Made by a program: the position numbers and the translations under genes. A stretch of 45,835 nucleotides of DNA from positions 1-45,835 of the forward strand of contig JAESTZ010000086.1 in the NCBI GenBank assembly GCA_016763315.1, read 5' to 3'. Positions 7,930-25,837 of the stretch are shown in pieces (position 1 is the stretch's first letter; every line of letters begins with the position of its first letter). Source of the DNA: Robiginitomaculum sp. Lineage in GTDB: Bacteria > Pseudomonadota > Alphaproteobacteria > Caulobacterales > Maricaulaceae. The notes below the pieces were generated by a model. It made no database searches, was not told the origin of the DNA, and saw nothing but the letters and a program-made list of their open reading frames with translations.

Positions 7930-7939
7930 CATGTTTCCG

Positions 7940-8458: not shown

Positions 8459-8544
8459 ATCTTCAACCTTGCCTTTCCAAAAACGATCGATTTTGAAATG
8501 GGCTAAAATCAGCGCCCGATTTCGTCACAATTTTTGCTAAACCC

Positions 8545-9297: not shown

Positions 9298-10409
9298 CGA
9301 AAAGTAGCGCTGTACGAATTTGCGTCATTCATTGTTTTTTGAGCCTCTCCATTCGCCTGCCCCTCATATCCGGATTCTTGCTGAATGATTTTCGTTTCAA
9401 TGTCGTCCGCTCCATTGTTCATAAAACCTTTTGCTTTTGTTGAAGTTTCCAAGAAATCGCGGTCTTTTTCTGCCTGAGATACGCTTGGATCATTCAGCTT
9501 TCTTTCCGCCTCAGGAAGGTCTTTTTCAATAAAATTATCGATCTCCTTCGCGCGCTTGTTCATTTGTGCCTCTTCACGTTCAAAGGCCTTCCATTGATCG
9601 GCGAATGCCGCATAAACAGCGGCCTCATTATTCCTGTCCACGGTTTGGCCGGTGCGCTCTTCATACTCCCGCAACGCTTTCTCAGCTTGTTCATTGGTAA
9701 TTTTACCGTCTTCACCAAGATCATAGCCATTTTCAAAAACGTCTTCGATGCCTCCGCGCATTTCATTGATGTCGTCACGGCGCTCTTCAATCCGGTTTAA
9801 TTCGTTTTGTAGATCATTGCGCAATGCCTCGAGCAATAGCTGTGTATCGGTTTGATTTTTGCGGGTTTTTTCTTTGGCATCTTGTGTGTCGCCTCTCATC
9901 TCGGCCTGCGCCCCAACGGCGGATGTCATCTCCCCCGCAGCCTCCGCCGCGCCCGACAATTGGCGTTGATGCGCTTGAAGTTTTTCTTGATCTGCGCGGG
10001 TTTTGGCAATCTGCTCTTCCGGGGAGGGTGTGTTCGGATCATTTTCGTCTATGGCAGGTTGCGCGGTTTCCTGTGCAGGTTCCGGCTTGGTCAAGGCATC
10101 ATATCGCGCCTGCAATCCCTCCCGTTCGTCAAAAATGTTTTGGAGCTTGGCTTTCAGAGCATCCCGCTCGGTGGGCGATTGCGCCTCTGCGATTTGCTCT
10201 TTAAGAAAATCGGTCATGGCGCGAAGAGAACGAACAGGCGGATCATCCTGCTCAACCTTGCTCGGAGTCGGTTTATCGGGATTTTCTTCTTCCATGCTCA
10301 TGGTTTTATCGTTAAAGACGAAACCCTTGGCCGCAAACTCAAACCTGCGCTGCAAGGTAATTTCTGGCAATGATTCTGCAACAGTCTGTATCGGTATTTG
10401 CTTACGCAT
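9294..10409 (-). CDS. Long coiled-coil protein with an EF-hand-like loop
   Basis: A 371-residue, very hydrophilic protein made largely of Glu/Lys/Gln/Arg-rich helices, predicted as extended coiled coil (about residues 60-110, 135-230 and 255-320). Near residue 231 is DLGEDGKITNEQAEKALREYE, which resembles a single EF-hand calcium loop (D-x-G-x-D-G-x-I) followed by its exit helix. No membrane segment or enzyme motif. The GTGG/GGGAGA-like bases just upstream of the ATG are compatible with initiation. The promoter region contains a perfect inverted repeat and a tandem repeat (separate entries). Function unknown; a structural or surface role is a guess. Confidence 0.6.
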   Translation of the reverse strand: MRKQIPIQTVAESLPEITLQRRFEFAAKGFVFNDKTMSMEEENPDKPTPSKVEQDDPPVRSLRAMTDFLKEQIAEAQSPTERDALKAKLQNIFDEREGLQARYDALTKPEPAQETAQPAIDENDPNTPSPEEQIAKTRADQEKLQAHQRQLSGAAEAAGEMTSAVGAQAEMRGDTQDAKEKTRKNQTDTQLLLEALRNDLQNELNRIEERRDDINEMRGGIEDVFENGYDLGEDGKITNEQAEKALREYEERTGQTVDRNNEAAVYAAFADQWKAFEREEAQMNKRAKEIDNFIEKDLPEAERKLNDPSVSQAEKDRDFLETSTKAKGFMNNGADDIETKIIQQESGYEGQANGEAQKTMNDANSYSATFR

Positions 10410-10447
10410 GACCCACCTTCTCCCCGCGCAAAGCTATGCATTCCCGA

Positions 10448-10478
10448 ATCTTGTTATTTACAGGGCAAATAACAAGAT
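10448..10478. promoter_or_regulatory. Perfect 12-bp inverted repeat upstream of the coiled-coil gene
   Basis: ATCTTGTTATTT (10448-10459) and AAATAACAAGAT (10467-10478) are exact inverted copies separated by 7 bases. AT-rich arms and the absence of a T-tract argue against a terminator. The position, about 40 bases upstream of a divergent start and beside a tandem repeat, suits an operator or a replication/transfer-initiator site. Confidence 0.6.
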
Positions 10479-10482
10479 AACT

Positions 10483-10525
10483 CAAAGTGCGCAATCTACG
10501 CCCCAAAGTGCGCAATCTACGCCCC
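10483..10525. repeat. Two tandem copies of a 21-bp repeat (iteron-like)
   Basis: The 21-bp unit CAAAGTGCGCAATCTACGCC plus one C occurs at 10483-10503 and again at 10504-10524 with no mismatch and no spacer. Length and phasing resemble plasmid iterons or a double operator. Only two copies are present and no Rep protein is recognised nearby, so a regulatory role is equally possible. Confidence 0.75.
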
Positions 10526-11033
10526 TTTGTCCCACCGCCCGTAAATGTCTGTATAGTGCCCCACATACCGATTATGCTTTGTTGTTTTTACTTAAATAAA
10601 GTATAGATTATCTTGGTTAAAAAATGGTTATTATGTAAAATATGATCTATGTTTATTTACCTACTTATAGTAACGATCAAGCATTGATGTTTGATGAATT
10701 ATACACTGCATTTTAACTGTATTTGATCTATGTGTTTTGCAGCAGTATCAAAGGCTTACCCTGTTTTATGTTTGGCCAGCGGACAACTGATGCGGATGCG
10801 CTTAAAAAGGCGTTACAATATTGGTGTAAGGGGGTATATTATGAACTGTGTTAGTGAATTTGAAGTTTGTGCGTTACGCAAGATGTAGTTTGTATGACAA
10901 ACTCTCTTGCCAAAGGGATGCTGCGCCCCTGTTGAATACCCAGCCTTTGGCACAATTCAAACCCATACTCCCAACTGACAAGCCAGATGAGAAGGGTGTT
11001 TTTGTACCAATCAAAACGTATCGCCGTTTCACC
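10526..11033. other. Non-coding stretch, AT-rich then hairpin-prone
   Basis: No convincing gene. The first half (10560-10760) is strongly AT-rich; the second shows imperfect short hairpins such as AAAGGG...CCCCT around 10912-10930. Small open frames here are short and lack coding character. It could hold the promoter of the restriction operon, an origin, or a structured RNA. Confidence 0.4.
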
Positions 11034-11364
11034 ACTCGTAAGGAGACTTCGCTCTCCTTGCATCCATCGCCTCTTTCAGAGAGACATAAGGGCGTTCCTA
11101 CCCCTAAGAACCCAGACAGCTCCATTGAGGCCAACCCTACGCGGATTGGATACACGCCAACTTCATCGCAGTTGAATTGCGACTAAGGGAGATTTCATCT
11201 CTCCCCTAGACCCCATAGAGCAAAGGGCATTGCCCCTTGGAACCCACTCGCAAGGAGACTTCACTCTCCCTGCACCCATCGACATAAGGACGTTTCTGCC
11301 CTTATGGAACCTGACAATGCCATTGAGGCTAACCGTCCGCCGTTTGGATGCGCCAGTGTTTCGC
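11034..11364. repeat. Duplicated hairpin-rich module (two diverged copies)
   Basis: Copy 1 (11034-11169) and copy 2 (11246-11364) align along their length; copy 1 has an extra stretch of about 13 bases near 11070. Both begin ACTCG(T/C)AAGGAGACTTC, contain the stem GGAGA...TCTCC and a CATAAGG-type segment, and share CCATTGAGGC. Further stems lie between and within them: CTAAGGGAGA/TCTCTCCCCTAG (11183-11210), AAGGG/CCCCTT (11222-11240) and CATAAGG/CCTTATG (11283-11306). The density of small GC stems is far above the surroundings and no long frame is kept. It ends about 70 bases before the restriction operon. Confidence 0.65.
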
Positions 11365-11435
11365 TACTGGATAACGTTGGGAATGGGCAAAAATAAGCGC
11401 TACACAACCGTGTATCCAATGTGTACATTACTTTG

Positions 11436-11618
11436 ATGATTAAAGATTCTGGATTTCGCATACGGGTTCAGCAGGAGCTTCGGGAAAAATTCCTGAAGAT
11501 TTGCCGCGACCAAGATAAGCCTGCCGCTCAGGTGCTTCGAGAATACATGCGGGAGTATGTAGCAGGGCATGAAGCCGCAAACGATGCGAAAAGAACGAAA
11601 AACAAGGACAAAGCCTGA
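11436..11618 (+). CDS. Small ribbon-helix-helix-like protein, first gene of the defence operon
   Basis: A 60-residue protein with the shape of a ribbon-helix-helix DNA-binding protein: a short strand (GFRIRVQQ), helix A (LREKFLKICRDQD), a turn and helix B (AAQVLREYMREYVAG), then a charged tail. I chose ATG 11436 because the next GTG upstream only adds residues before the strand. The stop is 2 bases before the SNF2 helicase start, so it is the leading gene of the operon and a plausible autoregulator of the restriction genes. No toxin partner lies beside it. The RHH call is by pattern, not by search. Confidence 0.65.
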   Translation: MIKDSGFRIRVQQELREKFLKICRDQDKPAAQVLREYMREYVAGHEAANDAKRTKNKDKA

Positions 11619-11620
11619 TT

Positions 11621-14464
11621 ATGGTTTCTTACACACCCTATCACAGCCAGTATTTGGCAAATCGGATTACCCTTGAGGGCTTAAGCGACGAGGCTTTTGC
11701 AAAATCCCTTTCCTCCGCTAGAGTTGATATGAATCCGCATCAAGTCGATGCCGCTTTATTTGCATTGCAATCACCTCTTTCCAAAGGCGTGATCCTGGGT
11801 GATGAGGTTGGTCTTGGAAAAACCATTGAAGCGTGTCTAGTCATTGCGCAGAAATGGGCTGAGCGGAAGCGCAAAGTTCTTCTTATCGTTCCAGCTTCGC
11901 TCCGTAAGCAGTGGGCGCAGGAGCTGCGTGAGAAATTTTCGTTCAATAGTCTCATTCTGGATGCAAAAACTTACAGAGAACGCTTGAAGGCGGTAACTCA
12001 CCGTCCGTTTGAGGCTGAAAATGCTGTGGTTATCGTTTCCTATGAATTCGCGGCGGGAAAGGCGGATGACATTGCTGTCATAGATTGGGATTTGGTGATC
12101 TATGATGAAGCTCACCGCCTTCGTAACGTCTATAAAAAAAGCGGATCAAAACGTGCCAAGAAATTGAAGGAAGCCCTGCAACGCCCCTTCAAGATGCTCC
12201 TTACCGCGACTCCCTTGCAAAATTCGTTGATGGAGCTTTATGGCCTTGTTTCCATGATCGATGACCATCATTTTGGTGATCAATATTCTTTCCGCACCAT
12301 GTACACCGGCGCAAGAGCCAGTCCGGCAACGCTGTCAGTTCTCAAAGATCGGTTATCTCAGGTTTGCCTGCGAACTTTGCGGCGGCAGGTGGTTGAGGCT
12401 GGCCACATAAACTTTACCAAGCGTCTTGTCCGTACCTTTGACTTTGAACCTGGAAACGAAGAAGTGTTGCTTTATGAAAAAGTGTCCGCCTTTTTACAGC
12501 GCAAGGATACGATTGCATTTGGCGACCGCACGAATCATCTACTGCTGCTCATTGCCCGCAAAATTCTTGGTTCTTCTACCTTCGCGATTTCACAATTTCT
12601 GCAAAGTATTATCAATCGCCTTGAAGAAAAAAAGCGTATTGATGAGAGCCTGTTAAACGACATTGATACAATCGATGAGCTCGCTGAAGAATGGGGTGAT
12701 GAAGGTGGAACAGAGCCGGAAAAACCGGCATATGATCCTGCAATGTTAGCCACAGAGGTTGCTGAACTAAAAGAGTATCGTGATCTTGCGCTTTCCATCG
12801 GATCCAACGCCAAGGGCGAGAAGCTGGTGGAGAAACTCCCTGATATTTTGGCCGAAATTGTCAAGCGGGGTGGGCAAGAAAAGGCTGTCATATTTACGGA
12901 ATCAGTCCGCACCCAGAAATATTTAAATGAGGTGCTCACTGCAAATGGTTTTGACGGTCGGATCGTACTGATGAATGGTTCCAATAATGATACCGGAAGC
13001 AAGGCTATTTACGCAGATTGGCTGGAACGTCATCAAGGAACAGATGCAATCTCTGGCTCAAAAAGTTCGGACATGAAGGCCGCTATTGTTGAGGCATTCA
13101 AGAGCGATGACAAAAGCATATTGATCTCTACTGAGTCCGGTGCCGAAGGCATCAACCTGCAATTTTGTTCGCTGATTGTGAACTTTGATTTACCCTGGAA
13201 CCCCCAAAGGATCGAACAGCGTATTGGCCGTTGTCATCGATACGGTCAAAAGCTCGACGTGACCGTGGTCAACCTGCTCAATCGCAAGAACAAAGCCGAA
13301 GCGCGTGTCTATGAGTTGTTGGAAAAGAAATTCAAACTTTTTGAAGGTGTCTTCGGGGTCAGTGATGAGGTGCTGGGTACAATCGAGCGCGGCATAGACT
13401 TTGAACGCAAGGTGCTGGCTATCGTTCAGGAAGCGCGCGGCGACGAAGAAGTACAGCTTGCTTTTGACCTGCTTCAAGAAGAGATGGAAGAAAAAATTGA
13501 TGCTGACATGCTGGATGCGCGTAAAAAACTGATGGAGCATATGGATCAGGATGTCGTCAATCGTCTCAAAACCAGAAAAGGTATGATCGAAGGCTCATTG
13601 AATGAATTCACACGGAGGCTGATCACAGTTGCCCGCGCTGAATTGCCTGACGCAAAGTTCCATAGCGACCAAAGCCCGCGCTTTGATTATCAGGACGAAA
13701 CATACACAACGGAATGGCCGCTTGCCGACGAGGAAGGTTGGCAATTCTTCCGTTTGACGGATGGAAATTTAGCGGAAACTCTTGTCAATCAAGCTAAAGA
13801 ACGAGAACTGGACGTTAAGTGCCTTCGGTTCGACCATTCGGCCTATCCGAATGTTATTGCCGATGTGAGGGATTTGGGTGGCAAATCTGGTTGGTTAAAG
13901 CTATCAAAACTCAGCATCAAAACCCCTCAATCTGTTCGTGAGCATATTGTTGCTGCGTGTATCACAGATAATGGAGAAGAAGTTCACCCTGAAACCGTGG
14001 ACCGGCTTTTTCTAATACCTGCGACTGAAAACGGTGCTCCGACAATACCTGTCCCCAATGATAAGTTGTTGAACGTAGAAGCTATACAGCAGCAGATTAT
14101 TATCGAGGAAGCCCAGCAACAAAATGCCGAGTGGCTAGACGCGGAAACCGATAAACTTGATGCCTATGCCGATGATCTGGAAAAAGCGGCAGAGGTCGAG
14201 ATCAAGGAAATGGATGGTGAAATCAAGGCCTCCAGAAAAGCTCTACGCTCCAACACAGCGATGGCCATGGCCGACAAGCTAACTGAAAAACGCCGTATTC
14301 AACGGCTGGAAAGCAAGCGAGACGATATGAAACTCAAAACCTTTGAGCGCCGCAAGAAAATCCGTGACGAAGTCAACCAGATGCTGGATGACATAGCGCA
14401 AAGCATGGATACGGCTCCTGTATTGGAACCGATGTTTTCAATCCGTTGGGAGGTTGTAGCGTGA
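11621..14464 (+). CDS. SNF2/HepA-family DEAH helicase
   Basis: A 947-residue SF2 ATPase of the SNF2/RapA type. Motif I is GDEVGLGKTIEA (about residues 60-71), motif Ia IVPASLRKQW, motif II YDEAHRLRN (about 161-169) and motif III LTATPLQNS. In the C-terminal RecA lobe are STESGAEGINLQFC and motif VI RIEQRIGRCHRYGQ. The last 350 residues hold a region ending in an Asp/Glu/Lys-rich coiled coil (about 830-915). SNF2 proteins translocate on duplex DNA and remodel bound proteins; in defence operons (for example drmD of DISARM) they act with a methyltransferase. No DISARM drmA/B genes are here. The gene overlaps the next by 4 bases (GTGA), implying coupling within the operon. Confidence 0.9.
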   Translation: MVSYTPYHSQYLANRITLEGLSDEAFAKSLSSARVDMNPHQVDAALFALQSPLSKGVILGDEVGLGKTIEACLVIAQKWAERKRKVLLIVPASLRKQWAQELREKFSFNSLILDAKTYRERLKAVTHRPFEAENAVVIVSYEFAAGKADDIAVIDWDLVIYDEAHRLRNVYKKSGSKRAKKLKEALQRPFKMLLTATPLQNSLMELYGLVSMIDDHHFGDQYSFRTMYTGARASPATLSVLKDRLSQVCLRTLRRQVVEAGHINFTKRLVRTFDFEPGNEEVLLYEKVSAFLQRKDTIAFGDRTNHLLLLIARKILGSSTFAISQFLQSIINRLEEKKRIDESLLNDIDTIDELAEEWGDEGGTEPEKPAYDPAMLATEVAELKEYRDLALSIGSNAKGEKLVEKLPDILAEIVKRGGQEKAVIFTESVRTQKYLNEVLTANGFDGRIVLMNGSNNDTGSKAIYADWLERHQGTDAISGSKSSDMKAAIVEAFKSDDKSILISTESGAEGINLQFCSLIVNFDLPWNPQRIEQRIGRCHRYGQKLDVTVVNLLNRKNKAEARVYELLEKKFKLFEGVFGVSDEVLGTIERGIDFERKVLAIVQEARGDEEVQLAFDLLQEEMEEKIDADMLDARKKLMEHMDQDVVNRLKTRKGMIEGSLNEFTRRLITVARAELPDAKFHSDQSPRFDYQDETYTTEWPLADEEGWQFFRLTDGNLAETLVNQAKERELDVKCLRFDHSAYPNVIADVRDLGGKSGWLKLSKLSIKTPQSVREHIVAACITDNGEEVHPETVDRLFLIPATENGAPTIPVPNDKLLNVEAIQQQIIIEEAQQQNAEWLDAETDKLDAYADDLEKAAEVEIKEMDGEIKASRKALRSNTAMAMADKLTEKRRIQRLESKRDDMKLKTFERRKKIRDEVNQMLDDIAQSMDTAPVLEPMFSIRWEVVA

Positions 14465-15306
14465 AGAAATTGTGGCATTGGTTTAAAACAACAGGATTAG
14501 GACTTTTAACTCGATTTCTTGCGCCGTGGACTAGTTTTATAGCTCTCATAAGTGGCGCACTGATTACTTACGATTTTACATCATTGCGAATTGACTATCC
14601 AAACTGGCCCGGCCTCTTTGATGTGCTTGATTCCAAGGCTCTTATTATTATTTTTCTCATTTCAGCCACTTTGGCCGCGCTTTTAGCCTGGGTGATGAAA
14701 AGGCGGCAGAAATCGCTGAATGATCTACAAAAGGAAATTGAGAGCACACGAGATCAAATTGGAGAAATTGGAAATAACATCAAGTTTTTGTTCGACGGAT
14801 TGCTCTTAAACCTATCCAAAAAACTTAACTTTAAACAGGGTGACCAAGCTCGCATTTCAATTTATGTTCATGAAAATTCTGACGGCCACTTTATTCCTTG
14901 CGGTAGATATTCGCCAAATCCAGAATTAAGAAAACCAGGACGCACTTTATACCCCGACAACCAAGGGTGTATTGCCAAAGGCTGGCAAAATGGATGGCAC
15001 TTTGACAAAGATTTTCCTGAGACATCCTCACGCCATAAAAGCTACTGTCAGTCACAATATGATATTCCAAAAAATACTCACGATGGTATGAAAATGCGCT
15101 CTCGCGTTTATGCCGCTCTTAGATTGGATGATCTATCTGGCAACCCTTTGGCGGTAATGGTTATTGAATCTAAAAATTCTGAACAGTTTGACGCAAATCA
15201 ACTCCAAACCGATTTAGAGAGTATTGCTGTTGATTTTTCTCAAATGATTTCAACGCTCAGGCAACACATTCCTAGTCCCTCTGATGCGACTGAAAGGGGG
15301 TTGTAA
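14461..15306 (+). CDS. Membrane-anchored GAF-like protein in the restriction operon
   Basis: A 281-residue protein with two N-terminal transmembrane helices (about 14-36 and 59-80), a short coiled coil (about 88-115) and a cytosolic domain of about 160 residues. Its pattern (RISIYVHENSDGHFIPCGRYS, then LAVMVIESKNSEQF near the end) resembles GAF sensor domains. The start is a GTG at 14461 with GGGAGG 7 bases upstream, overlapping the SNF2 stop by 4. A membrane sensor inside a restriction operon is unusual; it may recognise a ligand or place the complex at the entry site of DNA. The GAF assignment is by pattern and moderately sure; the ligand is unknown. Confidence 0.7.
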   Translation: MKKLWHWFKTTGLGLLTRFLAPWTSFIALISGALITYDFTSLRIDYPNWPGLFDVLDSKALIIIFLISATLAALLAWVMKRRQKSLNDLQKEIESTRDQIGEIGNNIKFLFDGLLLNLSKKLNFKQGDQARISIYVHENSDGHFIPCGRYSPNPELRKPGRTLYPDNQGCIAKGWQNGWHFDKDFPETSSRHKSYCQSQYDIPKNTHDGMKMRSRVYAALRLDDLSGNPLAVMVIESKNSEQFDANQLQTDLESIAVDFSQMISTLRQHIPSPSDATERGL

Positions 15307-15788
15307 TGGCTAAGTTAAAAGATGTGATGGCCTATCTGATCAAAAACTATCCTGAAAACATTCGTCATGAGATGTCAAATGCTCGTCTTACAAAAATGAT
15401 ATATCTGGCAGATTGGCATAAAGCGCTTACCTCAAATGAGCAAATGACAAGCATAGATTGGTACTTTGATAATTATGGCCCTTTTGTTCATGATGTCGAA
15501 AGAGTGGCTGCTTCTTATGGCGGCATTTTTTCAGTAAACTTGGGTAGCAATATGCATGGGCAACCTAAAAAATCTATTACTCTGAGAGATAACGCGCGCG
15601 CGCTAAAACTTACTGAAGAAGAGAGAATATCTTTAGATCACATAATTGATGTGACTAAGAGGCTGTATTGGGATGATTTTATCAAACTTGTTTATGCCAC
15701 ACATCCAATAGCTAGTTCTGAAAGATACAGTTTCTTAAATCTGGTCGAGAAGGCAGATGAATATCGAAAATTCAAGGAAGTAGACTAG
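15306..15788 (+). CDS. Panacea-domain (SocA-like) protein
   Basis: A 160-residue protein matching the Panacea/SocA-like family: KLTKMIYLADWHKA-like opening (NARLTKMIYLADWHK at about 25-39), the WYFDNYGPF(V)HDV block that is the hallmark of the family, and TKRLYWDDFIKLVYATHP near the end. Family members are best known as antitoxins or proteolysis adaptors (SocA hands SocB to ClpXP), and they occur inside many conflict operons. Its ATG overlaps the upstream stop by 1 base and its stop lies 1 base before mod, so here it is probably a regulator or neutraliser of the restriction complex rather than of a separate toxin. Confidence 0.82.
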   Translation: MAKLKDVMAYLIKNYPENIRHEMSNARLTKMIYLADWHKALTSNEQMTSIDWYFDNYGPFVHDVERVAASYGGIFSVNLGSNMHGQPKKSITLRDNARALKLTEEERISLDHIIDVTKRLYWDDFIKLVYATHPIASSERYSFLNLVEKADEYRKFKEVD

Positions 15789-15789
15789 A

Positions 15790-17538
15790 ATGAGTAAGAA
15801 AAAACAAAAACTGGAGCTGACATGGATTGGTAAAGATGCGCGACCAAAGCTGGAGCCGCGCATTCTGATTGAAGACCCGGAACTATCTTGTCACGCCAAA
15901 GAGCGCCGCTCGGACGATGATATTTTTGATAATATTTTGATCCATGGAGATAATCTTCTGGCACTCAAGGCACTGGAAGCCGAATACACAGGAAAAGTGA
16001 AGTGCATATATATTGACCCACCATACAATACTGGGAATGCATTTGAACATTACGATGATGGAATAGAACATTCGTTGTGGCTGTCATTGATGCGGGATCG
16101 GTTGGAAATTTTGAGAACTCTGCTTGCAGATGACGGCTTTATTTGTTGCCATATTGACGATTCGGAAGGTCATTACTTAAAGGTTCTTTTGGACGATGTT
16201 TTTGGCCGCGGAAATTACCAAACGACCCTGTACGTTCAGGTTAGGTATGCAAAAAAGACGTTAAAACAGGATATGAACTTTCATAAGCAAATTGAAATGG
16301 TTCACGTCTATCGGAAAGAGTATGGAGCGATACCGAATCTTCCAGAAAAAAAATCTTCGTTCGACAAATTTACTTTCTATGTTCATGAGCATGCCAAAGG
16401 ACGCGAGATTGAACTGGGGGGAAAGAAGGTAATTGTTTTTTCCAAGGATGAATTTGAAATAAAAAAGGATTTAGGAAGCGAAGATGGCAGAAAGGAAATT
16501 TGGGCATCTGGCAGTATTTTGGACGGAAATTCATCAGGACGATTCTTCCGTGATTTCTTGGCTGGACGTTATGATGATGACGGATACGGGGTTCTTTATA
16601 AAGTGTATGGCATCGGCGACGACAAGTTTGACAGCCGGTATTTCACGGGCCCCAAAAAAATAGGGGCAACCAAAGGAAAGTATTATCAAGGCGTCCCTAT
16701 GGCGCAGTTGAGAGACGCAAATGCTGTCAAAACGTCTCCGATTGAGAATTTTTATGACTTGGCTGGTGCGTTTGGCAACTGTCGCTTAGAGGGGGGGGTG
16801 GATTTCAGAAGTGGGAAAAAACCAGAAGCGCTACTTGAAATTATTTTAAAACATTTCAGTGACCCAGGGGATTTGGTTCTAGATTCCTTTGGTGGATCAG
16901 GTTCTACAGTAGCCGCAGCTCATAAGATGCGGCGACGGTGGATAACTGTTGAAATAGGAGAGCAAGCAAAAACCCATATTGCACCTCGCCTAACTCGAAT
17001 AGTCAACAATGAAGACATGACGGGGATTTCAGAACAAGTTGATTGGAATGGTGGCGGTGGTTTCCTCTATTACCGTCTTGCCCCATCCCTTCTTGAAAAA
17101 GACAAATACGGGAACTGGATAATTTCCAAGGAATATAACGCCGCCATGCTGGCTGAAGCCCTATGCAAGAATATGGGCTTCACTTACGCCCCATCGCAAG
17201 ACGAAAATGAGTATTGGCGGCATGGACACTCTACCGAAACCGACTTCATATTTGTAACCACAGCCTCCATGACACATTCAGCTTTGAGGAAGCTATCGGA
17301 AGATGTCGGGCCAGATCGAACCCTGCTGGTGTGTTGCAAGGCGTTCAATGCCAAAACAGATGCTTTTGACAATCTCACCATCAAGAAGATTCCCCATGCG
17401 GTTCTGTCAAAATGCGAATGGGGGCGAGATGATTACAGCCTCAATGTCGCCAACCTGCCCATGGCCAAAAGCGATGAGGAAATCGAACGGGAACGCATGA
17501 AAGAAGAGCTTCCTCTTTTCGCAAAGGAGGAGGAATAA
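15790..17538 (+). CDS. mod: Type III-like DNA adenine methyltransferase (Mod)
   Basis: A 582-residue beta-class amino-methyltransferase. The catalytic motif IV IDPPYNTG is at about residues 75-82 and the AdoMet motif I LDSFGGSGSTVAAA at about 363-376, the order typical of type III Mod; the variable segment between them is the likely target-recognition domain. The last 180 residues form a Mod-like C-terminal region. It should methylate adenine at an asymmetric site and, with the downstream Res, form the restriction complex. A run of eight G (16791-16798, about residue 334) lies upstream of motif I; gain or loss of one G would truncate the enzyme before the AdoMet site. The recognition sequence cannot be inferred. 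Confidence 0.92.
   Translation: MSKKKQKLELTWIGKDARPKLEPRILIEDPELSCHAKERRSDDDIFDNILIHGDNLLALKALEAEYTGKVKCIYIDPPYNTGNAFEHYDDGIEHSLWLSLMRDRLEILRTLLADDGFICCHIDDSEGHYLKVLLDDVFGRGNYQTTLYVQVRYAKKTLKQDMNFHKQIEMVHVYRKEYGAIPNLPEKKSSFDKFTFYVHEHAKGREIELGGKKVIVFSKDEFEIKKDLGSEDGRKEIWASGSILDGNSSGRFFRDFLAGRYDDDGYGVLYKVYGIGDDKFDSRYFTGPKKIGATKGKYYQGVPMAQLRDANAVKTSPIENFYDLAGAFGNCRLEGGVDFRSGKKPEALLEIILKHFSDPGDLVLDSFGGSGSTVAAAHKMRRRWITVEIGEQAKTHIAPRLTRIVNNEDMTGISEQVDWNGGGGFLYYRLAPSLLEKDKYGNWIISKEYNAAMLAEALCKNMGFTYAPSQDENEYWRHGHSTETDFIFVTTASMTHSALRKLSEDVGPDRTLLVCCKAFNAKTDAFDNLTIKKIPHAVLSKCEWGRDDYSLNVANLPMAKSDEEIERERMKEELPLFAKEEE
16791..16798 (+). repeat. Homopolymeric G8 tract inside mod
   Basis: Eight consecutive G within the mod coding frame, bracketed by A and T. 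It is in frame here, spanning the codons for Glu-Gly-Gly-Val. Poly-G tracts within type III mod genes are classic slipped-strand phase-variation sites; eight is near the lower end of lengths that slip readily. Confidence 0.7.
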
Positions 17539-17540
17539 GC

Positions 17541-20225
17541 ATGGTCATTGATCAAAAAATCAAGCGCCAGATAACCCAACGGCTTTCCCTTCGCGCACCG
17601 CAGGAACAATCCCTTTCCATTCTGGCGAATGTTGTATCAAAGATTGAGCTGTCAAAGGACGCTGATCCTGTTGCCGCACTTGAAACCATTCAGGCGGCTT
17701 ATCCAAGTGTCACGGATTTCGAACGTGATTTCCCCTCCCTTTGTTTTGCCCTAGCAACCGGCGTCGGTAAAACCCGTCTTATGGGGGCTTTCGCTGCATT
17801 TATGTTTTTAACAGGCCGATCAAAACATTTTTTTGTGCTCGCACCAAACACGACTATTTACGACAAGCTCATTCAGGACTTTACACCCGGAACACCAAAA
17901 TACGTGTTCAAGGGTATCGCTGAATTTGCTCTCAATCCGCCATTGTTGGTGACTGGTGACAATTGGGATAACGGACGCGGAGTCCAGGGCGGCGATCTTT
18001 TCGGCAATACGCTTATCATCAATATTTTCAATGTGGACAAGATCAACAAGGATAAGGGGCGAATAAAAAAACTGAATGAATATATTGGCGAATCTTATTT
18101 TGATTACCTCGCAGGGCTGCCTGACCTTGTCCTGATGATGGACGAAGCTCATCGTTATCGCGCCAAGGCAGGCATGAAGGCCGTTGCTGAGTTGAAACCC
18201 GTGTTAGGGTTGGAACTGACCGCCACACCGAAAACAGTTGGGGCGAACTCAAGAGAATTCAAGAATGTGATTTTTGACTACGGCCTTGGAAACGCCATGG
18301 CGGACGGTTTTGTCAAGGAGCCAGCGGTGGCTACCCGTGCCAACTTTGACCCCAAATCTGTTACAAATGAACAGCTTGAGCAGATCAAGCTTGAAGACGG
18401 CATTCATTACCATGAACATGTCAAAGTCGAGTTAGACATCTATTCTCGTGAAAGCGGAAAACATAAAGTGCACCCGTTTATGCTCGTCGTCGCGCAGGAC
18501 ACGACCCATGCCAAGGCATTGCGGGATCAGATCGAAAGCGATGGTTTTTTTGGCGGACGCTACAAGGGGAAAGTTATTGAAATCCACTCGGCACTAAAAG
18601 GTGTTGAAAGTGACGAAGCGTCCGAGCGTTTGGTAGCGCTGGAACATGACGGTCAAACCGATATTGTCATTCACGTAAACAAGTTGAAAGAAGGCTGGGA
18701 CGTTAACAATCTTTATACAATCGTTCCCTTGCGTGCATCGGCTTCTGATATTCTGACCGAACAAACATTGGGGCGTGGGTTGCGCTTGCCATACGGCAAG
18801 CGCACTGGTGTTGAAACCGTAGACACTCTGACTGTTATTGCGCATGATCGTTTTGATGAGGTTATCAAACGTGCCCGTCAAGATGACTCGCCCTTCGCCA
18901 TCAAGAAAATTTCTATTGGGGATGATGCGGATGTTTCTTCCTCTGGCGCAACCGTTTTGGAATCACCAACAGTTCTGGATAGCATGTTGACGGGCGCTTC
19001 TTCAGGAATACCCGGCATGGCCGAGCAGGAACAAGCACCGTTAGTTTTTGAAACACCACAAGAGCAACAAGCGGCGCAAATGACTATTGAACTGATCCAG
19101 CAACAATATGAACGTAAATTAAAGCGCGGCGTTGGACAGTTGAATGAACCAGCGGTTCAAAAGGAACTTGTTGTAGCAGTTACGGTTGCCATGAAACCCG
19201 TACAAGGTGAATTTGAGGGTGTTGGCGATAAGCCTGATATCGAGAAAATTGTAAAAACGGTCACGGACAAGATCGTTGAGTTGACGATTGAAATTCCGGA
19301 AATTGTAGTCATTCCAACCCGTGAAGTGACCTTTGGGTACAAAAACTTTGACTTGCAGGGGCTTGAAGCTGTTTCCAAGCAGCCCATTTCTGATGAAATC
19401 ATGATCACCAATATGCGCACGGATGCCCGCTCATTTCTGGCACGTACTTTCGAAGGTGCAGGCGAGGATGTGATGGAAAACTATATTGTTCGCCATTTGA
19501 TCGAATTTGATCAGGTTGATTATGATAGCCAGTCGGATCTCTTGTACAAATTGGCAGGGCAAATGGTTGAACGTGTGCGTTCGTATTTATCTGTTCCTGA
19601 AGATGTTGAAAATGTGTGTCTTGTCCATGGAAAAGAGCTGGCTCGCTTTATATTCGAACAGATGAAGCAACATTATTGGGAAACACCCACTGATTATCAG
19701 GCCACGATATCACGTGGATTTCAGGTGCTGCGTCCACAAGCTTTCAATGTATCCGACTCGTCCAAAGTCAGAGACTTCAGGCAACCAGCGATACTTCTAG
19801 GTGATACAAAGAAACATGTTTTCACTGGCTTTCAGAAATGCTGTTACCCGTTCCAGAAATTTGATTCAGATGATGAACGACGTTTTGCAGTTCTGATCGA
19901 TTCTGACCACGAAACCAGTGTCACTCGTTGGATGAAACCTGGTTCCAAACAGTTCCAGATCGAATATCTGGCAGGCAAAGGGTATGAACCTGATTTCGTG
20001 GTTGAAACGGATACTGAAAAGTTAATCGTTGAGGTGAAAGCCAAAAACGAAATGACAGATGAAGTTGTTCTGGCAAAAGCACGCGCTGCTTGTGAATGGA
20101 TCGGCTATGCAAATACTCATGCGGGAGAAAACGATGGCAAGAAGTGGCTCTACGCTCTCGTGCCACATGATGAGATCAAAGAAAGCTCCACATTAGCTGG
20201 CCTTATGGCCGCGTATGGGAGGTAG
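17541..20225 (+). CDS. res: Type III-like restriction helicase-nuclease (Res)
   Basis: An 894-residue SF2 helicase joined to a nuclease. Motif I is LATGVGKTRL (about residues 71-80), motif II MMDEAHRYRA (about 199-208), motif III ELTATPKT; the second RecA lobe includes VNKLKEGWDVNN and TLGRGLRLP. The C-terminus has a PD-(D/E)xK pattern, EPDFVVE about 14 residues before IVEVKAK (about 816-832), as expected for type III Res. It acts with Mod to translocate along or switch on DNA and cleave unmodified invaders. The ATG is 2 bases after mod; the stop overlaps the next gene by 1 base. No frameshift is visible and all core motifs are intact. Confidence 0.92.
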   Translation: MVIDQKIKRQITQRLSLRAPQEQSLSILANVVSKIELSKDADPVAALETIQAAYPSVTDFERDFPSLCFALATGVGKTRLMGAFAAFMFLTGRSKHFFVLAPNTTIYDKLIQDFTPGTPKYVFKGIAEFALNPPLLVTGDNWDNGRGVQGGDLFGNTLIINIFNVDKINKDKGRIKKLNEYIGESYFDYLAGLPDLVLMMDEAHRYRAKAGMKAVAELKPVLGLELTATPKTVGANSREFKNVIFDYGLGNAMADGFVKEPAVATRANFDPKSVTNEQLEQIKLEDGIHYHEHVKVELDIYSRESGKHKVHPFMLVVAQDTTHAKALRDQIESDGFFGGRYKGKVIEIHSALKGVESDEASERLVALEHDGQTDIVIHVNKLKEGWDVNNLYTIVPLRASASDILTEQTLGRGLRLPYGKRTGVETVDTLTVIAHDRFDEVIKRARQDDSPFAIKKISIGDDADVSSSGATVLESPTVLDSMLTGASSGIPGMAEQEQAPLVFETPQEQQAAQMTIELIQQQYERKLKRGVGQLNEPAVQKELVVAVTVAMKPVQGEFEGVGDKPDIEKIVKTVTDKIVELTIEIPEIVVIPTREVTFGYKNFDLQGLEAVSKQPISDEIMITNMRTDARSFLARTFEGAGEDVMENYIVRHLIEFDQVDYDSQSDLLYKLAGQMVERVRSYLSVPEDVENVCLVHGKELARFIFEQMKQHYWETPTDYQATISRGFQVLRPQAFNVSDSSKVRDFRQPAILLGDTKKHVFTGFQKCCYPFQKFDSDDERRFAVLIDSDHETSVTRWMKPGSKQFQIEYLAGKGYEPDFVVETDTEKLIVEVKAKNEMTDEVVLAKARAACEWIGYANTHAGENDGKKWLYALVPHDEIKESSTLAGLMAAYGR

Positions 20226-21196
20226 TGGTGTCTCTCAATAGAAAAACAGACTTGGATCGTATAACTGAGATACTTTCATATCTAAAGTCGCAGGTTGAGC
20301 TGTCTAATCCAAGTAATTTCACGGACATAAATATCTATGCCGAAAGTTTTTACCGTGATTTTCTGAACCTGATTTTTGGCTATGAATTGTCGAATATTAA
20401 CATCATTGAACCCAATTCTGCAGCAATAGACCTTGGTGATAAGGTTTCGAACATTGCTGTTCAGGTAACATCAACAAGTGACCTTTCTAAAATAAAACAA
20501 ACGGTTGCAAAATTTATTGGCAAAAACCTTCATGAGGAATATGACAGATTAGTCATACTTAATATTTCAATGAAGAAAAATTATCGGACGAAGACCGTTG
20601 GTGAACAAGAAAAATACGAGTTGGATACTACAAAGGATGTTTGGGATTTCTCTAATCTAATCAAAAAAATTGGAGATAAGGGTGTTGATGAAATATCGGC
20701 AATAAAAATATTCCTAGAAGGGCAAGCCACGATTGATAATGTTGAAACGGTTGCGACGGAAATACTAACATTTCAGGCCTTAATCAGTTTATTAAGCAAC
20801 GAAAATCATTCCGCTGCGGGTGGAGGATTTGTTGAGGAACCAGACCCCAAAGGTAAGCTCGAAGAGCGGTTCTCGAACCATACTGATTACCTTAAGACTG
20901 AATTTAAGGAACTATATACCGAATATGGAGACGTGCTGATTGACGTCTTTGCACACCAAGATTTGGGGCAGGTCAAGTTGAGGCGTTTGCGTTTACATTT
21001 GAAGACTTATAGCGATAAGGTTCTCACGGAGTGCGAAGGGGATGCAAAGCAAGCGATCGGTGTTTTGGTCGATAAATTTTCTGAACGTCTTATGGCGAAT
21101 GGCATTGAATACGACGTTACGGCAATCCGGTTCTTTCTGATTGATGAGTTAATTAGGTGCAATGTGTTTCCTAACAAGGAGGCCGCAGTTGTCTAA
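20225..21196 (+). CDS. SMEK-domain protein, C-terminal component of an ABC-3C system
   Basis: A 323-residue protein. Residues 1-150 match the SMEK domain (YAESFYRDFLNLIFGYEL, then AIDLGDKVSNIAVQVTST), a nuclease-like fold of the restriction-endonuclease superfamily found in conflict systems. Residues of about 205-320 (FKELYTEYGDVLIDVFAHQ to FFLIDELIRCNVF) match the C-terminal domain that defines ABC-three-component systems. In those systems this protein is the effector or target-binding arm of the ATPase complex. The start is GTG (20225, or 20228), overlapping the Res stop by 1 base. The 3' end overlaps the middle component by 8 bases. The nuclease-like role of the SMEK domain is predicted, not proven. 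Confidence 0.78.
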   Translation: MVSLNRKTDLDRITEILSYLKSQVELSNPSNFTDINIYAESFYRDFLNLIFGYELSNINIIEPNSAAIDLGDKVSNIAVQVTSTSDLSKIKQTVAKFIGKNLHEEYDRLVILNISMKKNYRTKTVGEQEKYELDTTKDVWDFSNLIKKIGDKGVDEISAIKIFLEGQATIDNVETVATEILTFQALISLLSNENHSAAGGGFVEEPDPKGKLEERFSNHTDYLKTEFKELYTEYGDVLIDVFAHQDLGQVKLRRLRLHLKTYSDKVLTECEGDAKQAIGVLVDKFSERLMANGIEYDVTAIRFFLIDELIRCNVFPNKEAAVV

Positions 21197-21425
21197 TTTA
21201 TTTATAACGGATGAAGACATCGAAACAGCCCCACCTGTTGTAGGATATAAGATTATGCAATTGCTTGAGAAAAAGGAAGGCGGACAGATTAGCATTTTTG
21301 AGGTGACAGATAAGCTGAAAAAGGAGAAATGGTTTTCTTCACGCCATCTGTACTTAGGGATGATTTTTCTATTCTCAGTAGGACTGATAGAATTCAAGCA
21401 ACCATATATTGTGAAGCATGTTTAG
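21189..21425 (+). CDS. ABC-3C middle component
   Basis: A 78-residue protein consistent with the small 'middle component' of ABC-three-component systems: a compact winged-helix-like pattern (VVGYKIMQLLEKKEGG, ISIFEVTDKLKKE, FSSRHLYLGMIFLFSVGLI). I place the start at TTG 21189 because AAGGAGG lies 6 bases upstream, while the ATG-less longer frame from 21162 lacks a site. It overlaps both neighbours by 8 bases, so it is encoded strictly between the SMEK/CTD protein and the ATPase, as is typical. It probably links the ATPase to the CTD protein. Confidence 0.75.
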   Translation: MSNLFITDEDIETAPPVVGYKIMQLLEKKEGGQISIFEVTDKLKKEKWFSSRHLYLGMIFLFSVGLIEFKQPYIVKHV

Positions 21426-23121
21426 AATCAGAAAACTTTACACCGAACCCAAGATCATCGATCCAATTGAGTTTTTCGATGGGGTCAATCTCGTTTTGGG
21501 CGTGAAAGATCAAACAAGTAATAAAACTAATGGTGTAGGAAAGTCCCTTTCAATGGAATTCCTTAACTTTGCACTATTAGCGAGTAAAAATAAGAGCCGT
21601 GTAAATCTTATTCCAAAAGACATATTGCCACCAGAAACCGAAATCTGTTTAGACATCGAACTTGGTGGTGATAGTTATACAATTAAACGATCAATTGAAA
21701 ATTCTGAAGAGCCGAAGATTATAACTAATGGTGACGAGACGGTGTTTTCAAATATTAGCGATGCCACAGAATTTTTGAGTGGAAAACTCTTCTCAAAATC
21801 AGAAAGAAAGTCTCCGTCATTTAGGTCGATATTGGGGCCTTTAATTAGGGATGAACGTTCTGAATTTAAGTCCCTCGTTGCATGCTACGATACAAATTAC
21901 AGAATTCCGGATGATTATTCACCGCATATTTTTCTGTTCGGACTCGACATTAACCTTTATGCGTCCATTCGATCCACAATTAATCTAATCGATGATTTAA
22001 CAAAAGATATCAAGAAGATAAAAGATAACGTAAAACTTCTCAGGCAAAAAGATATTACGGACGCGCGGTCAGATTTGAACGAATTAGACAGCGAGGTTGA
22101 GGAAATAGAAAAGAGCATTGACGCTCTTGAAAATATTTCTGGCTATGAATTCATCAAAGATGACATCATAGCACTCGAAGCAAACCTTGAAGACCGTCGC
22201 CGTGAAAAATCACTTCTGAACCAAAAACTCAACAGAACGAAACTGATTGCTGACGGGCGACGGGTAGATAGCAACGAAATCGGTGAATTTTTTAAACAAA
22301 TGAGTGAAAGACTGGGAGATATGATAAAACGAGATTTGGATGAAGTGTATTCCTTCAAAGCAAAAATCGATGATTTCCAGAATCAATTAATTCAAGAACG
22401 CAGGGGAATCTTATCTCAAGAGATTAGCAGGCTAGCACACGAGATCGCTGCCTTGGACAGGCAGTATACGCAAAAACTCAGCATTTTAGATCAGCAGGGG
22501 AGCTTAAGAAACCTAAAGCAAACTTACGCGGCGTTTCAGGCCAAAGCTGGTGAAGCAAGCCAATTAAGGGCATTTATAGATAGATTTGAAGAGCTGGAAA
22601 CACTTAAGCAGGAGGCGAGAACAAAGAAAGAAGCGGAATTATTGCAATTGCAATCGGATATACAAGTAGCGAAAGAAACTATTAAATCTTTCGAGGGAAC
22701 TATTCTTGATATTCACAATTTCATTCAGGGAAATAAAAAGGCAGCTTTCGAAATTAAACCAACCAGCAAAAAGCAGGTTGTTGAGATTGTAATGAGAATC
22801 GACGACGACGGTAGTCATAGTGTTGAACGAGAAAAGGTTTTTATTTACGATTTGGCTTTGCTCTTAAATGAGAATGTTTCCAAAAATCATCCAGGTATAT
22901 TGATCCACGATAATATTTTTGACGTTGACCAAGATACGTTGATCAAGAACATTAAATATCTCGTTGAAAAAGCAGAGTTTCGCAATCATCAGCAATACAT
23001 ACTCACACTGAATTCTGATCGACTAGATCAAGATATGATGAACCTTATATCCCCGTATGTACGAGCAGAATTTACCAAGAAAAATAGGTTCCTAAAAGCT
23101 CACTACCAAGAGCTACATTAA
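21418..23121 (+). CDS. SMC-like ABC ATPase of an ABC-3C system (DUF2326 family)
   Basis: A 567-residue SMC/Rad50-like ATPase. The N-terminal half-site has FFDGVNLVLGVKD and Walker A NGVGKS (about residues 38-43). A long antiparallel coiled coil fills about 190-450. The C-terminal lobe carries the DUF2326 signature region HPGILIHDNIFDVDQDTL, the Walker B-like strand, followed by the LTLNSDRLDQD strand. In ABC-3C systems this ATPase is the sensing and clamping engine on DNA or nucleoprotein. It ends the nine-gene run: the following 227 bases are non-coding before ardA. Only the ATPase class is certain; the trigger is unknown. Confidence 0.85.
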   Translation: MFRIRKLYTEPKIIDPIEFFDGVNLVLGVKDQTSNKTNGVGKSLSMEFLNFALLASKNKSRVNLIPKDILPPETEICLDIELGGDSYTIKRSIENSEEPKIITNGDETVFSNISDATEFLSGKLFSKSERKSPSFRSILGPLIRDERSEFKSLVACYDTNYRIPDDYSPHIFLFGLDINLYASIRSTINLIDDLTKDIKKIKDNVKLLRQKDITDARSDLNELDSEVEEIEKSIDALENISGYEFIKDDIIALEANLEDRRREKSLLNQKLNRTKLIADGRRVDSNEIGEFFKQMSERLGDMIKRDLDEVYSFKAKIDDFQNQLIQERRGILSQEISRLAHEIAALDRQYTQKLSILDQQGSLRNLKQTYAAFQAKAGEASQLRAFIDRFEELETLKQEARTKKEAELLQLQSDIQVAKETIKSFEGTILDIHNFIQGNKKAAFEIKPTSKKQVVEIVMRIDDDGSHSVEREKVFIYDLALLLNENVSKNHPGILIHDNIFDVDQDTLIKNIKYLVEKAEFRNHQQYILTLNSDRLDQDMMNLISPYVRAEFTKKNRFLKAHYQELH

Positions 23122-23348: not shown

Positions 23349-23852
23349 ATGACAAATACATATCACGCAACACCTTACGACATTTCAGCATCAGGCTTCT
23401 ATTTCAACACTTACGAAGACTATCTCGAAAAATCTGCTACCCATCGCAATGAGTATGGCGATCCTGTTGAGGAATACGAAATCCAGTTTATCGACGGTGA
23501 TAATTACCGCTTATTCGGTGCCCTTGGTATCAATCAGGCCAATCTCAAAGACTGGTTCGATAGCTTTGAAGAGCTTGACGACGAAGACGTTATCAAAGTC
23601 ATCTATCTGAGCGAAGATTTAGGCTATGCCATGGACGGCATTCTTGATCGTCTGGACGATGTGATCTTGTTTGAAGGTTCAGTTCTCGATTACGCGATTA
23701 GCTATCTCGAAGATACTGGCCTTTTGGATCAAATCCCTGAAAATCTACGCTATTATTTTGATACCGAAAGCTTCGCTCGTGACCTTGAGCGCAATGGCGA
23801 TATTGCTAGCCTTGAAGTCGATAATACGCATTACGTTGTTCAGGCCTGTTAA
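23349..23852 (+). CDS. ardA: Antirestriction protein ArdA
   Basis: A 167-residue, strongly acidic protein with the ArdA pattern: N-terminal SGFYFNTYEDYLEKSA, a central acidic segment (WFDSFEELDDEDVIKVIYL), and the conserved end PENLRYYFDTESFARDLERNG. ArdA dimers mimic bent B-DNA and block type I restriction enzymes, and sometimes others, protecting an entering element from host restriction. The ATG at 23349 is chosen for the AAGGAG 7 bases upstream; the longer frame has no support. It follows the island's own restriction operon, so the island carries both a restriction system and an anti-restriction protein. A decayed second copy lies at 27736-27873. Confidence 0.9.
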   Translation: MTNTYHATPYDISASGFYFNTYEDYLEKSATHRNEYGDPVEEYEIQFIDGDNYRLFGALGINQANLKDWFDSFEELDDEDVIKVIYLSEDLGYAMDGILDRLDDVILFEGSVLDYAISYLEDTGLLDQIPENLRYYFDTESFARDLERNGDIASLEVDNTHYVVQAC

Positions 23853-24191: not shown

Positions 24192-25427
24192 TTACTGCAC
24201 CGCTCCCATGCGGTTTTTAATCAAGCGTATATTTGCCGCGCGAACGCCGTGGGTTTTAGCAAGGCTTTCCCAATGTGACAAAGCCGTTTGGGTTTGGTTA
24301 ATGACGCTCAATATTTTTGGTTTAGCTAATCCCGCCTCTTTGCCAAGTGCCTGCAAATGCGTAAGGCTTGGCGCTTTGCCTTCACCCATGACCATTGTAC
24401 TTTGCTCACCGCTTGGCCCAGATGAGAATGTTAAATCATAGGCCGGGGAAACGCGCCAAGAGCCGTTTGCATCCATCAAAAATGTAAAGTTCTTTGTGTG
24501 GTCGTCACGATTATGCGCCAGCACATTAAAGGCAGCAATGCGGAACATTTTTTCAACCTCACGCATATCACGGGTTAAATGATGGGTGAGCGCCAGCAGG
24601 TCTTGGTAATCCAATGACGGTGTTCTAAAATCTGAATGTAGAAGTCCGCAAGCCGTATGGGTATGCAGCCGCGCCGTGCCATCACGATCAGAGCGTTTTG
24701 TTGCAAAATATCCCGCGCCATTTTGCGCGTCAAAAAGATGGCACGGCATCATGTCTATACCAGCCTCCCTAGCCATGAGCGCATAAACATATTCGGTCGC
24801 GCCAGCATCTATACCGTCTTGAGCATTGGCAAATTTAACCAGCCACGGCGCATAGTTTTTTGGCAATGTGGACGCACCATGCACAATGCGGTTATGTTTT
24901 TCATCAAATCCAATGAGGGCTTTTGGCCGCGCTCCTGCCGATGAGCCGTTTAGCGCAAGTAAACCCTCTAACACATCATCTGATTGTCCTTGCAACACCG
25001 CGTGAGCTTGCTGTGCCAGGTGGTCGAGGTTAATATCAGGCGCGGTTACATCAGAGGTAAAGTCTGGCTCATAGGTCAATGCGCCCATGCCTGTGCGGCC
25101 AGTATAAGCCAGCCTATCAAGAGGGCTTAACTCTTGCGGCAATATGCCTTGCGCTCGCATGGCGCGGTCAAACAATAACCGCCCCCAGCCATCGGGCAGG
25201 CTGTCATTGAAAGCGCTCGGCAATCCTTCAAAGAGCTTATTATCAAACTGTTGAAGCTCTGGTTTCAAGGGTAGGTGAAGCGGGGAAATATTTAAGCCTC
25301 GCGATAAAAATTCAGGCTCATACTCAAAATAGATGGTGCGCTCCCGCAAGGCGAGGCGACCAACATCAATTGAACCGCTCCCAAAATCTAAGCCAACTTT
25401 TATTTGTGTAACAGGCGCGATACTCAT
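24192..25427 (-). CDS. hipA: HipA-family serine/threonine kinase toxin
   Basis: A 411-residue HipA-type kinase. It shows the N-terminal couple domain (VGRLALRERTIYFEYEPEFL), the Gly-rich segment NGSSAGARPKALIGF, the KFANAQDGIDAGATEYVYALMAREAGI block and the catalytic loop FNVLAHNRDDHTKNF, followed by the metal-binding SPAYDLTFS (DLT). HipA toxins phosphorylate glutamyl-tRNA synthetase or related targets and cause growth arrest; the specific target here is unknown. Its start overlaps the hipB stop (ATGA), so the antitoxin is translated first. All motifs are intact. Confidence 0.93.
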   Translation of the reverse strand: MSIAPVTQIKVGLDFGSGSIDVGRLALRERTIYFEYEPEFLSRGLNISPLHLPLKPELQQFDNKLFEGLPSAFNDSLPDGWGRLLFDRAMRAQGILPQELSPLDRLAYTGRTGMGALTYEPDFTSDVTAPDINLDHLAQQAHAVLQGQSDDVLEGLLALNGSSAGARPKALIGFDEKHNRIVHGASTLPKNYAPWLVKFANAQDGIDAGATEYVYALMAREAGIDMMPCHLFDAQNGAGYFATKRSDRDGTARLHTHTACGLLHSDFRTPSLDYQDLLALTHHLTRDMREVEKMFRIAAFNVLAHNRDDHTKNFTFLMDANGSWRVSPAYDLTFSSGPSGEQSTMVMGEGKAPSLTHLQALGKEAGLAKPKILSVINQTQTALSHWESLAKTHGVRAANIRLIKNRMGAVQ

Positions 25428-25726
25428 GAGCGAAAACCCCGTTGACGTGGTTTACTACTCGCCAAGACTTCATCAATAGAGGTGAACTCGCTTTGTGCGG
25501 GGGCGCTTGCCTCCACAAGCTGCTCTAATCCACCAACGATCATCATCAATTTGCACAGGCTTTTCACTGATATTGCGCCTGTGCGCTCAAACTTACGCAG
25601 GGTCGCCAGAGCCACACCAGAGCGTTCCGATAGTCCCGCTTGCGTGAATCCAATGGCAAGCCGCCGCGCACGAATATTTTTGGCGAGCATCTCTTGGGCT
25701 TTGTTTGGTGTAATAAGTGTCATCAT
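25424..25726 (-). CDS. hipB: HipB-like HTH antitoxin
   Basis: A 100-residue protein with an XRE-type helix-turn-helix at about residues 15-70 (IRARRLAIGFTQAGLSERSGVALATLRKFERTG is split by me into its two helices, RARRLAIGFTQAGLSERS and VALATLRKFER). It should bind HipA, neutralise it and repress the operon. Start ATG 25726, or 25723. It overlaps hipA by 4 bases. The spaced inverted AT-rich arms just upstream (25728-25772) suit an autorepression operator. Confidence 0.9.
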   Translation of the reverse strand: MMTLITPNKAQEMLAKNIRARRLAIGFTQAGLSERSGVALATLRKFERTGAISVKSLCKLMMIVGGLEQLVEASAPAQSEFTSIDEVLASSKPRQRGFRS

Positions 25727-25727
25727 A

Positions 25728-25772
25728 ATGATTATTATAGCATAAAAAGGTTATAAATAATACTATAATGAT
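25728..25772. promoter_or_regulatory. Candidate HipB operator
   Basis: ATTATTATAG (25731-25740) and CTATAATGAT (25763-25772) match 9 of 10 as inverted arms around a 22-base AT-rich spacer, directly before the hipB start. The arrangement of paired arms overlapping a promoter is typical of HipB binding sites, although the arms are low in sequence complexity. Confidence 0.45.
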
Positions 25773-25837
25773 GTTAATATCACATAAAATTAGCGTAGTT
25801 TAACGTCAAAATTACGCAAACGATGGCATTTACGGCG

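Follow-up and report, generated by a model that had tools for sequence, protein, structure and literature searches.

A nine-gene operon of Robiginitomaculum sp. that most likely joins three separable defence modules and lies on a mobilizable element

In type III restriction, Mod marks host DNA, and Mod and Res together cut DNA that is unmarked. Among toxin–antitoxin systems, a 281-residue toxin that combines a GAF domain with an FtsL-like membrane part and is neutralized by a stand-alone Panacea antitoxin (toxFtsL–PanA) causes filamentation of Escherichia coli (Ernits 2023, PMC10440598). ABC-3C systems, covered together with Lamassu type II (DdmABC) in PMC10586767 and PMC12409362, are placed by reviews in the Lamassu superfamily, for which the same kind of source describes sensing of DNA structures or ends, followed by release of LmuA and its assembly into an active tetramer; the Walker-B glutamate of the superfamily ATPases is usually substituted, and a CxxC hook is common, not universal. 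Here, we describe a nine-gene, plus-strand operon at 11436–23121 of a 45,835-nucleotide stretch of Robiginitomaculum sp. DNA (the window; contig JAESTZ010000086.1 of assembly GCA_016763315.1), which very likely lies on a mobilizable element and is put together from three separable defence modules: an SNF2–type III restriction-modification (R-M) core, a probable toxin–antitoxin pair (insert 1), and an ABC-3C trio (insert 2). The operon is probably a patchwork of three systems of known kinds, not one new machine. Each module is of a known kind and the combination is a variant; no description of the nine-gene combination was found among the titles and abstract openings listed in searches of open-licence papers.

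All nine genes are open, with a terminal stop codon only, and their junctions measure +2, −4, −1, +1, +2, −1, −8, and −8 bases (gaps positive, overlaps negative), exactly as counted in an initial sequence-only reading of the window. Three genes have non-ATG starts (GTG for the GAF and SMEK genes, TTG for the gene of the middle component, MC), so some junction sizes hinge on the choice of start; with the alternative ATG at 21162, the overlap of the MC gene with the SMEK gene becomes 35 bases. The gene identities proposed in that reading held in family searches, with the RHH_9 and MC6 matches falling below their cut-offs and the GAF label coming from AlphaFold and Foldseek.

The core comprises genes for a DrmD-like SNF2 helicase (947 residues, 11621–14464), a type III Mod (582 residues, 15790–17538), and a type III Res (894 residues, 17541–20225). 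The SNF2 protein (SNF2-rel_dom, 1e-35; PADLOC DrmD, 605 bits) contains the GLGKT and DEAH motifs. Mod (N6_N4_Mtase, 8e-36; PADLOC MTase_III, 584 bits) matches the structure of EcoP15I Mod (1.2e-18), and Res (ResIII, 1e-19; PADLOC REase_III, 851 bits) matches that of EcoP15I Res (2.8e-9, A1 profile). The adjacent mod (beta-class methyltransferase) and res (helicase and nuclease) genes thus have the make-up of an EcoP15I-type type III system, including DPPY and FGGSG in Mod, and GVGKT, DEAH, and a C-terminal PD-x-ExK in Res. Unlike in EcoP15I-type systems, an SNF2 helicase precedes mod, often with intervening genes. This arrangement recurs among the relatives. An alignment scan of the genome collection with Res confirmed at least 499 relatives, of which the best 80 were kept; with six plasmid loci, three from family relatives, and 26 from viral contigs, 115 Res loci were compared, 114 of them distinct (L020 and L045 are one contig). 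SNF2, Mod, and Res occur in this order on one strand in 71 of the 114, the remainder being 33 loci without an acceptable SNF2 call and 10 without a Mod call, many of which run into a contig edge; in L123, the gene order differs. As 13 loci (L039, L047, L050, L070, L082, L098, L099, L101, L102, L129, L133, L134, and L137) have at least 7 kb ahead of Mod yet no acceptable SNF2 call, the helicase is common, not universal. Mod itself was found in four of 200 genomes of the order, its own genome included.

The SNF2 helicase had been linked to DISARM in the sequence-only reading, an assignment that is not retained: it belongs to the Mod/Res core, not to DISARM. Its best score is with a DrmD model, but that score lies well under the cut-off (604 bits against 950 for NCBIfam DrmD_b, and 248 against 610 for a second model). 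No DISARM partner was identified among the nine genes; of their products, only the SNF2 protein itself matches a DrmA model, more weakly than DrmD.

The modular structure of the operon shows in a comparison with its closest core relative, L023, from an uncultured Sphingomonadaceae bacterium (Res 86% identical), in which SNF2, Mod, and Res follow one another with a 4-base SNF2/Mod overlap, and both the pair and the trio are absent. Positions 11619–14464 and 15790–20116 of the window align to 5416–8252 and 8249–12576 of L023; the two blocks overlap by 4 bases in L023 and lie 1325 bases apart in the window. DNA homology ends at the SNF2 stop codon (77% DNA identity across SNF2) and restarts at the Mod start codon, which places the borders of insert 1 exactly. 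In Res, homology extends to about position 20222, setting the near border of insert 2. In L023, the next gene after Res is an ArdA-like gene (12882–13385), followed by a small gene and, on the other strand, genes for a relaxase and NikA. Their counterparts in the window (43%, 43%, 44%, and 42% identical, respectively) are all located beyond the trio, the ArdA-like antirestriction gene (23349–23852, plus strand; ArdA, 5.6e-10) directly after the operon, and the window therefore differs from L023 by a 1.3-kb SNF2–Mod stretch and about 2.9 kb after Res. The inserted genes also differ in composition from the core: SNF2, Mod, and Res have GC contents of 47.4%, 44.6%, and 46.6%, the GAF and Panacea genes of 40.7% and 37.5%, and the SMEK, MC, and ATPase genes of 39.1%, 36.7%, and 37.8%. 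Owing to this composition and to the 22 loci with an empty SNF2–Mod site (see below), gain in the window, not loss in L023, is the probable direction of change. Separately, the stretch upstream of the operon at 10990–11400 looks repetitive by eye, and a 64-base part shares 83% identity with L023 5045–5107, upstream of SNF2 there.

Insert 1 encodes a 281-residue protein consisting of a membrane helix, a long helix, and a GAF domain (14461–15306), and a stand-alone Panacea protein of 160 residues (15306–15788; SocA_Panacea, 1.6e-10). The former has a strong hydrophobic segment at residues 61–79; its relative in L107 shows no hydrophobic segment at the same hydropathy cut-off. Sequence-family searches give no support for the GAF label, and a profile search against solved structures returned weak matches that were taken for coiled-coil noise. 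The AlphaFold model (pLDDT 74.4, predicted template-modelling score (pTM) 0.58, N-terminal part weak) is helical up to residue 121 and alpha/beta beyond, and solved GAF domains are among many of its best Foldseek matches (from E 3.6e-6). Structure prediction had been proposed in the sequence-only reading for this protein and for SMEK; with the SMEK model (pTM 0.51), a Foldseek search to E 0.001 gave no match. In its length of 281 residues, membrane helical part, GAF domain, and stand-alone Panacea partner, the pair resembles toxFtsL–PanA (PMC10440598), and differs in sitting inside an R-M operon; the likeness is one of architecture. By analogy, the two genes probably form a toxin–antitoxin pair of this type, with the GAF protein as probable toxin and the Panacea protein as probable antitoxin (PanA). 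The pair also travels alone. A GAF gene lies immediately 5′ of the Panacea gene in all five other loci where the pair was found, including 4/4 viral contigs with a Panacea relative and one plasmid record among 72,556, on which the two genes are adjacent and overlapping; the Panacea protein had no match among phage records. SNF2, Mod, and Res had no match in any of these five loci (tblastn, E 1e-4).

Insert 2 places an effector, a middle component, and an SMC-like ATPase in one operon, the composition that defines ABC-3C. The SMEK protein (323 residues, 20225–21196; SMEK_N, 1e-45), the effector in the position of LmuA, is matched over profile positions 3–165 by the solved Mrr domain of an Mrr–APAZ protein (1.2e-30). 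The 78-residue MC (21189–21425) scores 19.2 bits with MC6 (0.0013; cut-off 27.2 bits), and the SMEK and ATPase genes flank a similar gene in the other trios. The DUF2326 SMC-like ABC ATPase (567 residues, 21418–23121; DUF2326, 3e-19) has an asparagine, Asn499, at the position (placed by eye) where the Walker-B glutamate is expected, directly after Asp498; both residues are invariant in six sequences, and no CxxC hook is present. The trio resembles Lamassu type II (DdmABC) in the order of effector, small middle component, and SMC-like ATPase and in the substituted Walker-B glutamate, and differs in having a SMEK/Mrr effector instead of Cap4, asparagine instead of glutamine, and no CxxC hook. 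The ATPase is also a strong match to a component of the PADLOC candidate system PDC-M68 (PDC-M68B, 6e-45), whereas the SMEK and MC genes match no PDC-M68 model at E 1.

Trios of this kind were found in nine other loci: L003–L006 on plasmids (the ATPase match being partial in L003), L108–L111 on viral contigs (the ATPase split in L110), and L143. SNF2, Mod, and Res had no match in the stretches compared from any of the nine (eight by tblastn, E 1e-4). Conversely, no SMEK, MC, ABC, GAF, or Panacea match was detected in the 114 Res loci (tblastn, E 1e-4), and none of the 97 with at least 2.5 kb after Res carries the trio, with the proviso that distant ABC-3C versions could be missed at this threshold with three query trios. 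The gene-order search proposed in the sequence-only reading thus recovered the nine-gene order in no other locus compared, and in these loci the Mod/Res set and the trio were found apart, an outcome that the same reading had named as speaking against a single system. Among genomes, the ATPase is rare: it occurs in one of 137 from the family (E 1e-20) and one of 385 from the class (E 1e-40), in both cases its own genome, and in four of 398 from the phylum (E 1e-30), which contribute one further whole trio and two weak matches accompanied by no SMEK or MC match. The trios in L108 and L110 lie near genes for Zn-ribbon Toprim primases, a setting that we take to be P4-satellite-like.

Both insertion sites carry other cargo elsewhere. 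Among the 71 SNF2–Mod–Res loci, the SNF2–Mod distance is at most 46 bases in 22 (empty) and at least 744 bases in 48 (filled); L132 (676 bases) was set aside because its SNF2 match ends at residue 660. The filled slots yielded 80 same-strand open reading frames (ORFs) of at least 120 residues from 47 loci, in 50 sequence clusters, some of the short ORFs perhaps not being genes. By sequence comparison, the SNF2–Mod gap is a general cargo slot that holds unrelated genes, several assignable to known defence families: an IetA–IetS pair in L058 (relatives in L059 and L100), HEC-01 A and B in L010, a ThsB-like TIR protein in L120, an AbiJ-like protein in L044 (relatives in L036 and L112), five Schlafen AlbA proteins, three PIN proteins, and a Fic protein in L051. 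The largest cluster has 12 members of 287–584 residues (L008 6582–8162 and 11 relatives), the first of which matched nothing in Pfam or PADLOC; those from L020 and L022 show a weak resemblance (20–22%) to the C-terminal region of SNF2. After Res, a same-strand ORF of at least 120 residues starts within 260 bases in 45 of the 97 loci, many of these ORFs looking ordinary. Fifty-one of 80 post-Res ORFs were scanned, ordinary-looking or more distant ones being left out, and SMC_N matched four (in L075, L116, L122, and L128). The cargo here includes same-strand SbcD–SbcC-type phosphoesterase–ATPase pairs in L075, L122, and L128 (the ATPases of L122 and L128 being 64% identical), an AAA_13 ATPase in L116, an Argonaute-associated type of TIR protein in L090, and a Sacsin/GHKL ATPase in L044; in L008, a convergent pair of SMC-like ATPase and phosphoesterase genes lies behind Res. 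All of these counts are occurrences without a background control, and enrichment is not claimed. L044 (Nitrosospira, 1692–17684) is itself a mobilizable element with a related relaxase and NikA, and its cargo differs from that of the window in both places (the AbiJ-like gene and the Sacsin/GHKL ATPase).

These distributions bear directly on how the operon should be understood. The main proposal of the sequence-only reading was a single multi-part system, in which DNA may be sensed or clamped by ABC-3C and cleaved by Res or SMEK; taken strictly, such a system would need all its parts together. The continuous run of junctions between −8 and +2 bases is in line with this, as are scans for promoter-like and terminator-like sites, which are about as common in the run as after shuffling (20 sites where the shuffled mean is 22.5, and 14 against 13.2). 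A single machine is nevertheless highly improbable, as both pair and trio occur elsewhere without the core, the closest core relative lacks both inserts, and inserts and core differ in composition. The fallback offered in the same reading, neighbouring systems that share transcription, fared better: separate modules are favoured, but there are three, not two. At the other extreme, the combination could be an assembly chimera of unrelated contigs, since the genome is in 122 contigs (92% complete) and the combination was met once. This deserves almost no credence, as genes abut or overlap across every border and the ArdA-like, small, and mobilization genes found after the L023 core recur beyond the trio in the window. 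That cargo accumulated on a mobile element by chance, toxin–antitoxin addiction being the only selected link, is rather unlikely. On its side, the SNF2–Mod slot is filled in 48 of 71 loci by genes from many unrelated clusters, and the window encodes a relaxase, NikA, a coupling protein, and serine recombinases; against it, the seamless, same-orientation borders suggest selection for coexpression.

A further reading, compatible with a composite operon, links the modules in function, with no complex in common: the ends that Res creates in DNA would trigger the ABC-3C sensor, and the trio would be a back-up for cases in which restriction has set in but does not suffice. Reviews give DNA-end sensing as a proposed Lamassu trigger, and PMC12839542 describes backup effectors recruited to BREX loci, which resemble the operon in having extra effectors embedded in a modification-based core and differ in that the core is PglX/PglZ-based and "type III" refers there to CRISPR. 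The SMC_N matches and the convergent pair of L008 after Res fit this reading, as do the restriction-type genes near three of the nine other trios: in L004, the trio starts 52 bases after a DpnII-type R-M pair; in L005, it lies two genes after an HSDR_N protein; and in L111 (8807–15570), genes for a C5 methylase, a FokI-type nuclease, and Vsr begin about 750 bases downstream. Such coupling is unlikely on present counts: the cases are few and without a background control for either count, the related L122 and L128 ATPases contribute two of them, and the six other trios have no identified restriction-type neighbour (neighbours being scanned in part). Equally speculative, and similarly unlikely, is its generalization, in which SNF2–type III R-M operons serve broadly as carriers, loaded at two sites with cargo that is functionally wired to restriction; post-Res cargo (ABC-3C here, SbcCD-like or AAA_13 ATPases elsewhere) would read DNA ends made by Res, and SNF2–Mod cargo would guard the core against inhibition or loss.

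A composite of three separable modules remains the preferred reading, and several observations weigh against it or limit its detail. The restriction-type neighbours of three other trios count here too, and separate occurrence is evidence of separability, not of an absence of co-operation; as all junctions lie within 8 bases, coordinated use may have been selected for. Past the trio, the sequence has no convincing alignment to L023, and the far border of insert 2 is not placed. For insert 1, the probable toxin is identified by its architecture and its partner. For insert 2, the ATPase matches LmuB weakly (28.8 bits, 1e-7), and a profile search of solved structures gave weak matches, taken for coiled-coil noise, with no Lamassu chain among the matches listed; in SMEK, the D69..Q80-V-T82 motif is without an obvious catalytic lysine, which makes nuclease activity uncertain.

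If the composite reading is correct, the modules would probably share one transcript, with translational coupling, and would defend the cell in layers that work largely independently of one another. Mod would mark host DNA, and Mod/Res would cut unmarked incoming DNA, with the SNF2 translocase probably assisting. Upon disturbance of the Panacea antitoxin, cell arrest by the membrane GAF protein would follow; the pair may, in addition, put a cost on losing the operon. The SMC-like ATPase would recognize a DNA structure or end specific to the invader and set free the SMEK nuclease, which would then degrade DNA and abort the infection. The empty-site relative illustrates that a toxin–antitoxin-type pair can sit in a restriction operon at gene-exact borders, and the window that a Lamassu-type module can follow such an operon without a gap. 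The recurrent SNF2–Mod slot is a place to seek uncharacterized defence genes, and the operon makes testable the question of whether co-transcribed defence modules only co-travel or whether one triggers the next.

The remaining features of the window concern the ends of the operon and its mobile surroundings. The first of the nine genes (11436–11618) encodes an RHH-like protein of 60 residues, a probable regulator outside the conserved core, for which the RHH_9 match of 23.0 bits is marginally under the cut-off of 23.4; it had no match (tblastn, E 1e-5) among the relatives' loci then in the comparison. At 24192–27635, beyond the ArdA genes, lie genes for HipA with a small HTH protein, a Fic protein, and an IS1595-type transposase. 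Relaxase and NikA genes at 30710–34694 are found beside a tRNA-Arg (CCT) gene and a gene whose product carries Methyltransf_30 and DAO domains (presumably MnmC-like), and this region may be one border of the mobile element. At the other end of the window, a large serine recombinase ORF on the minus strand (1682–3343) overlaps, at its end, a plus-strand tRNA-Arg (CCG) gene at 1736–1812, a possible integration site.

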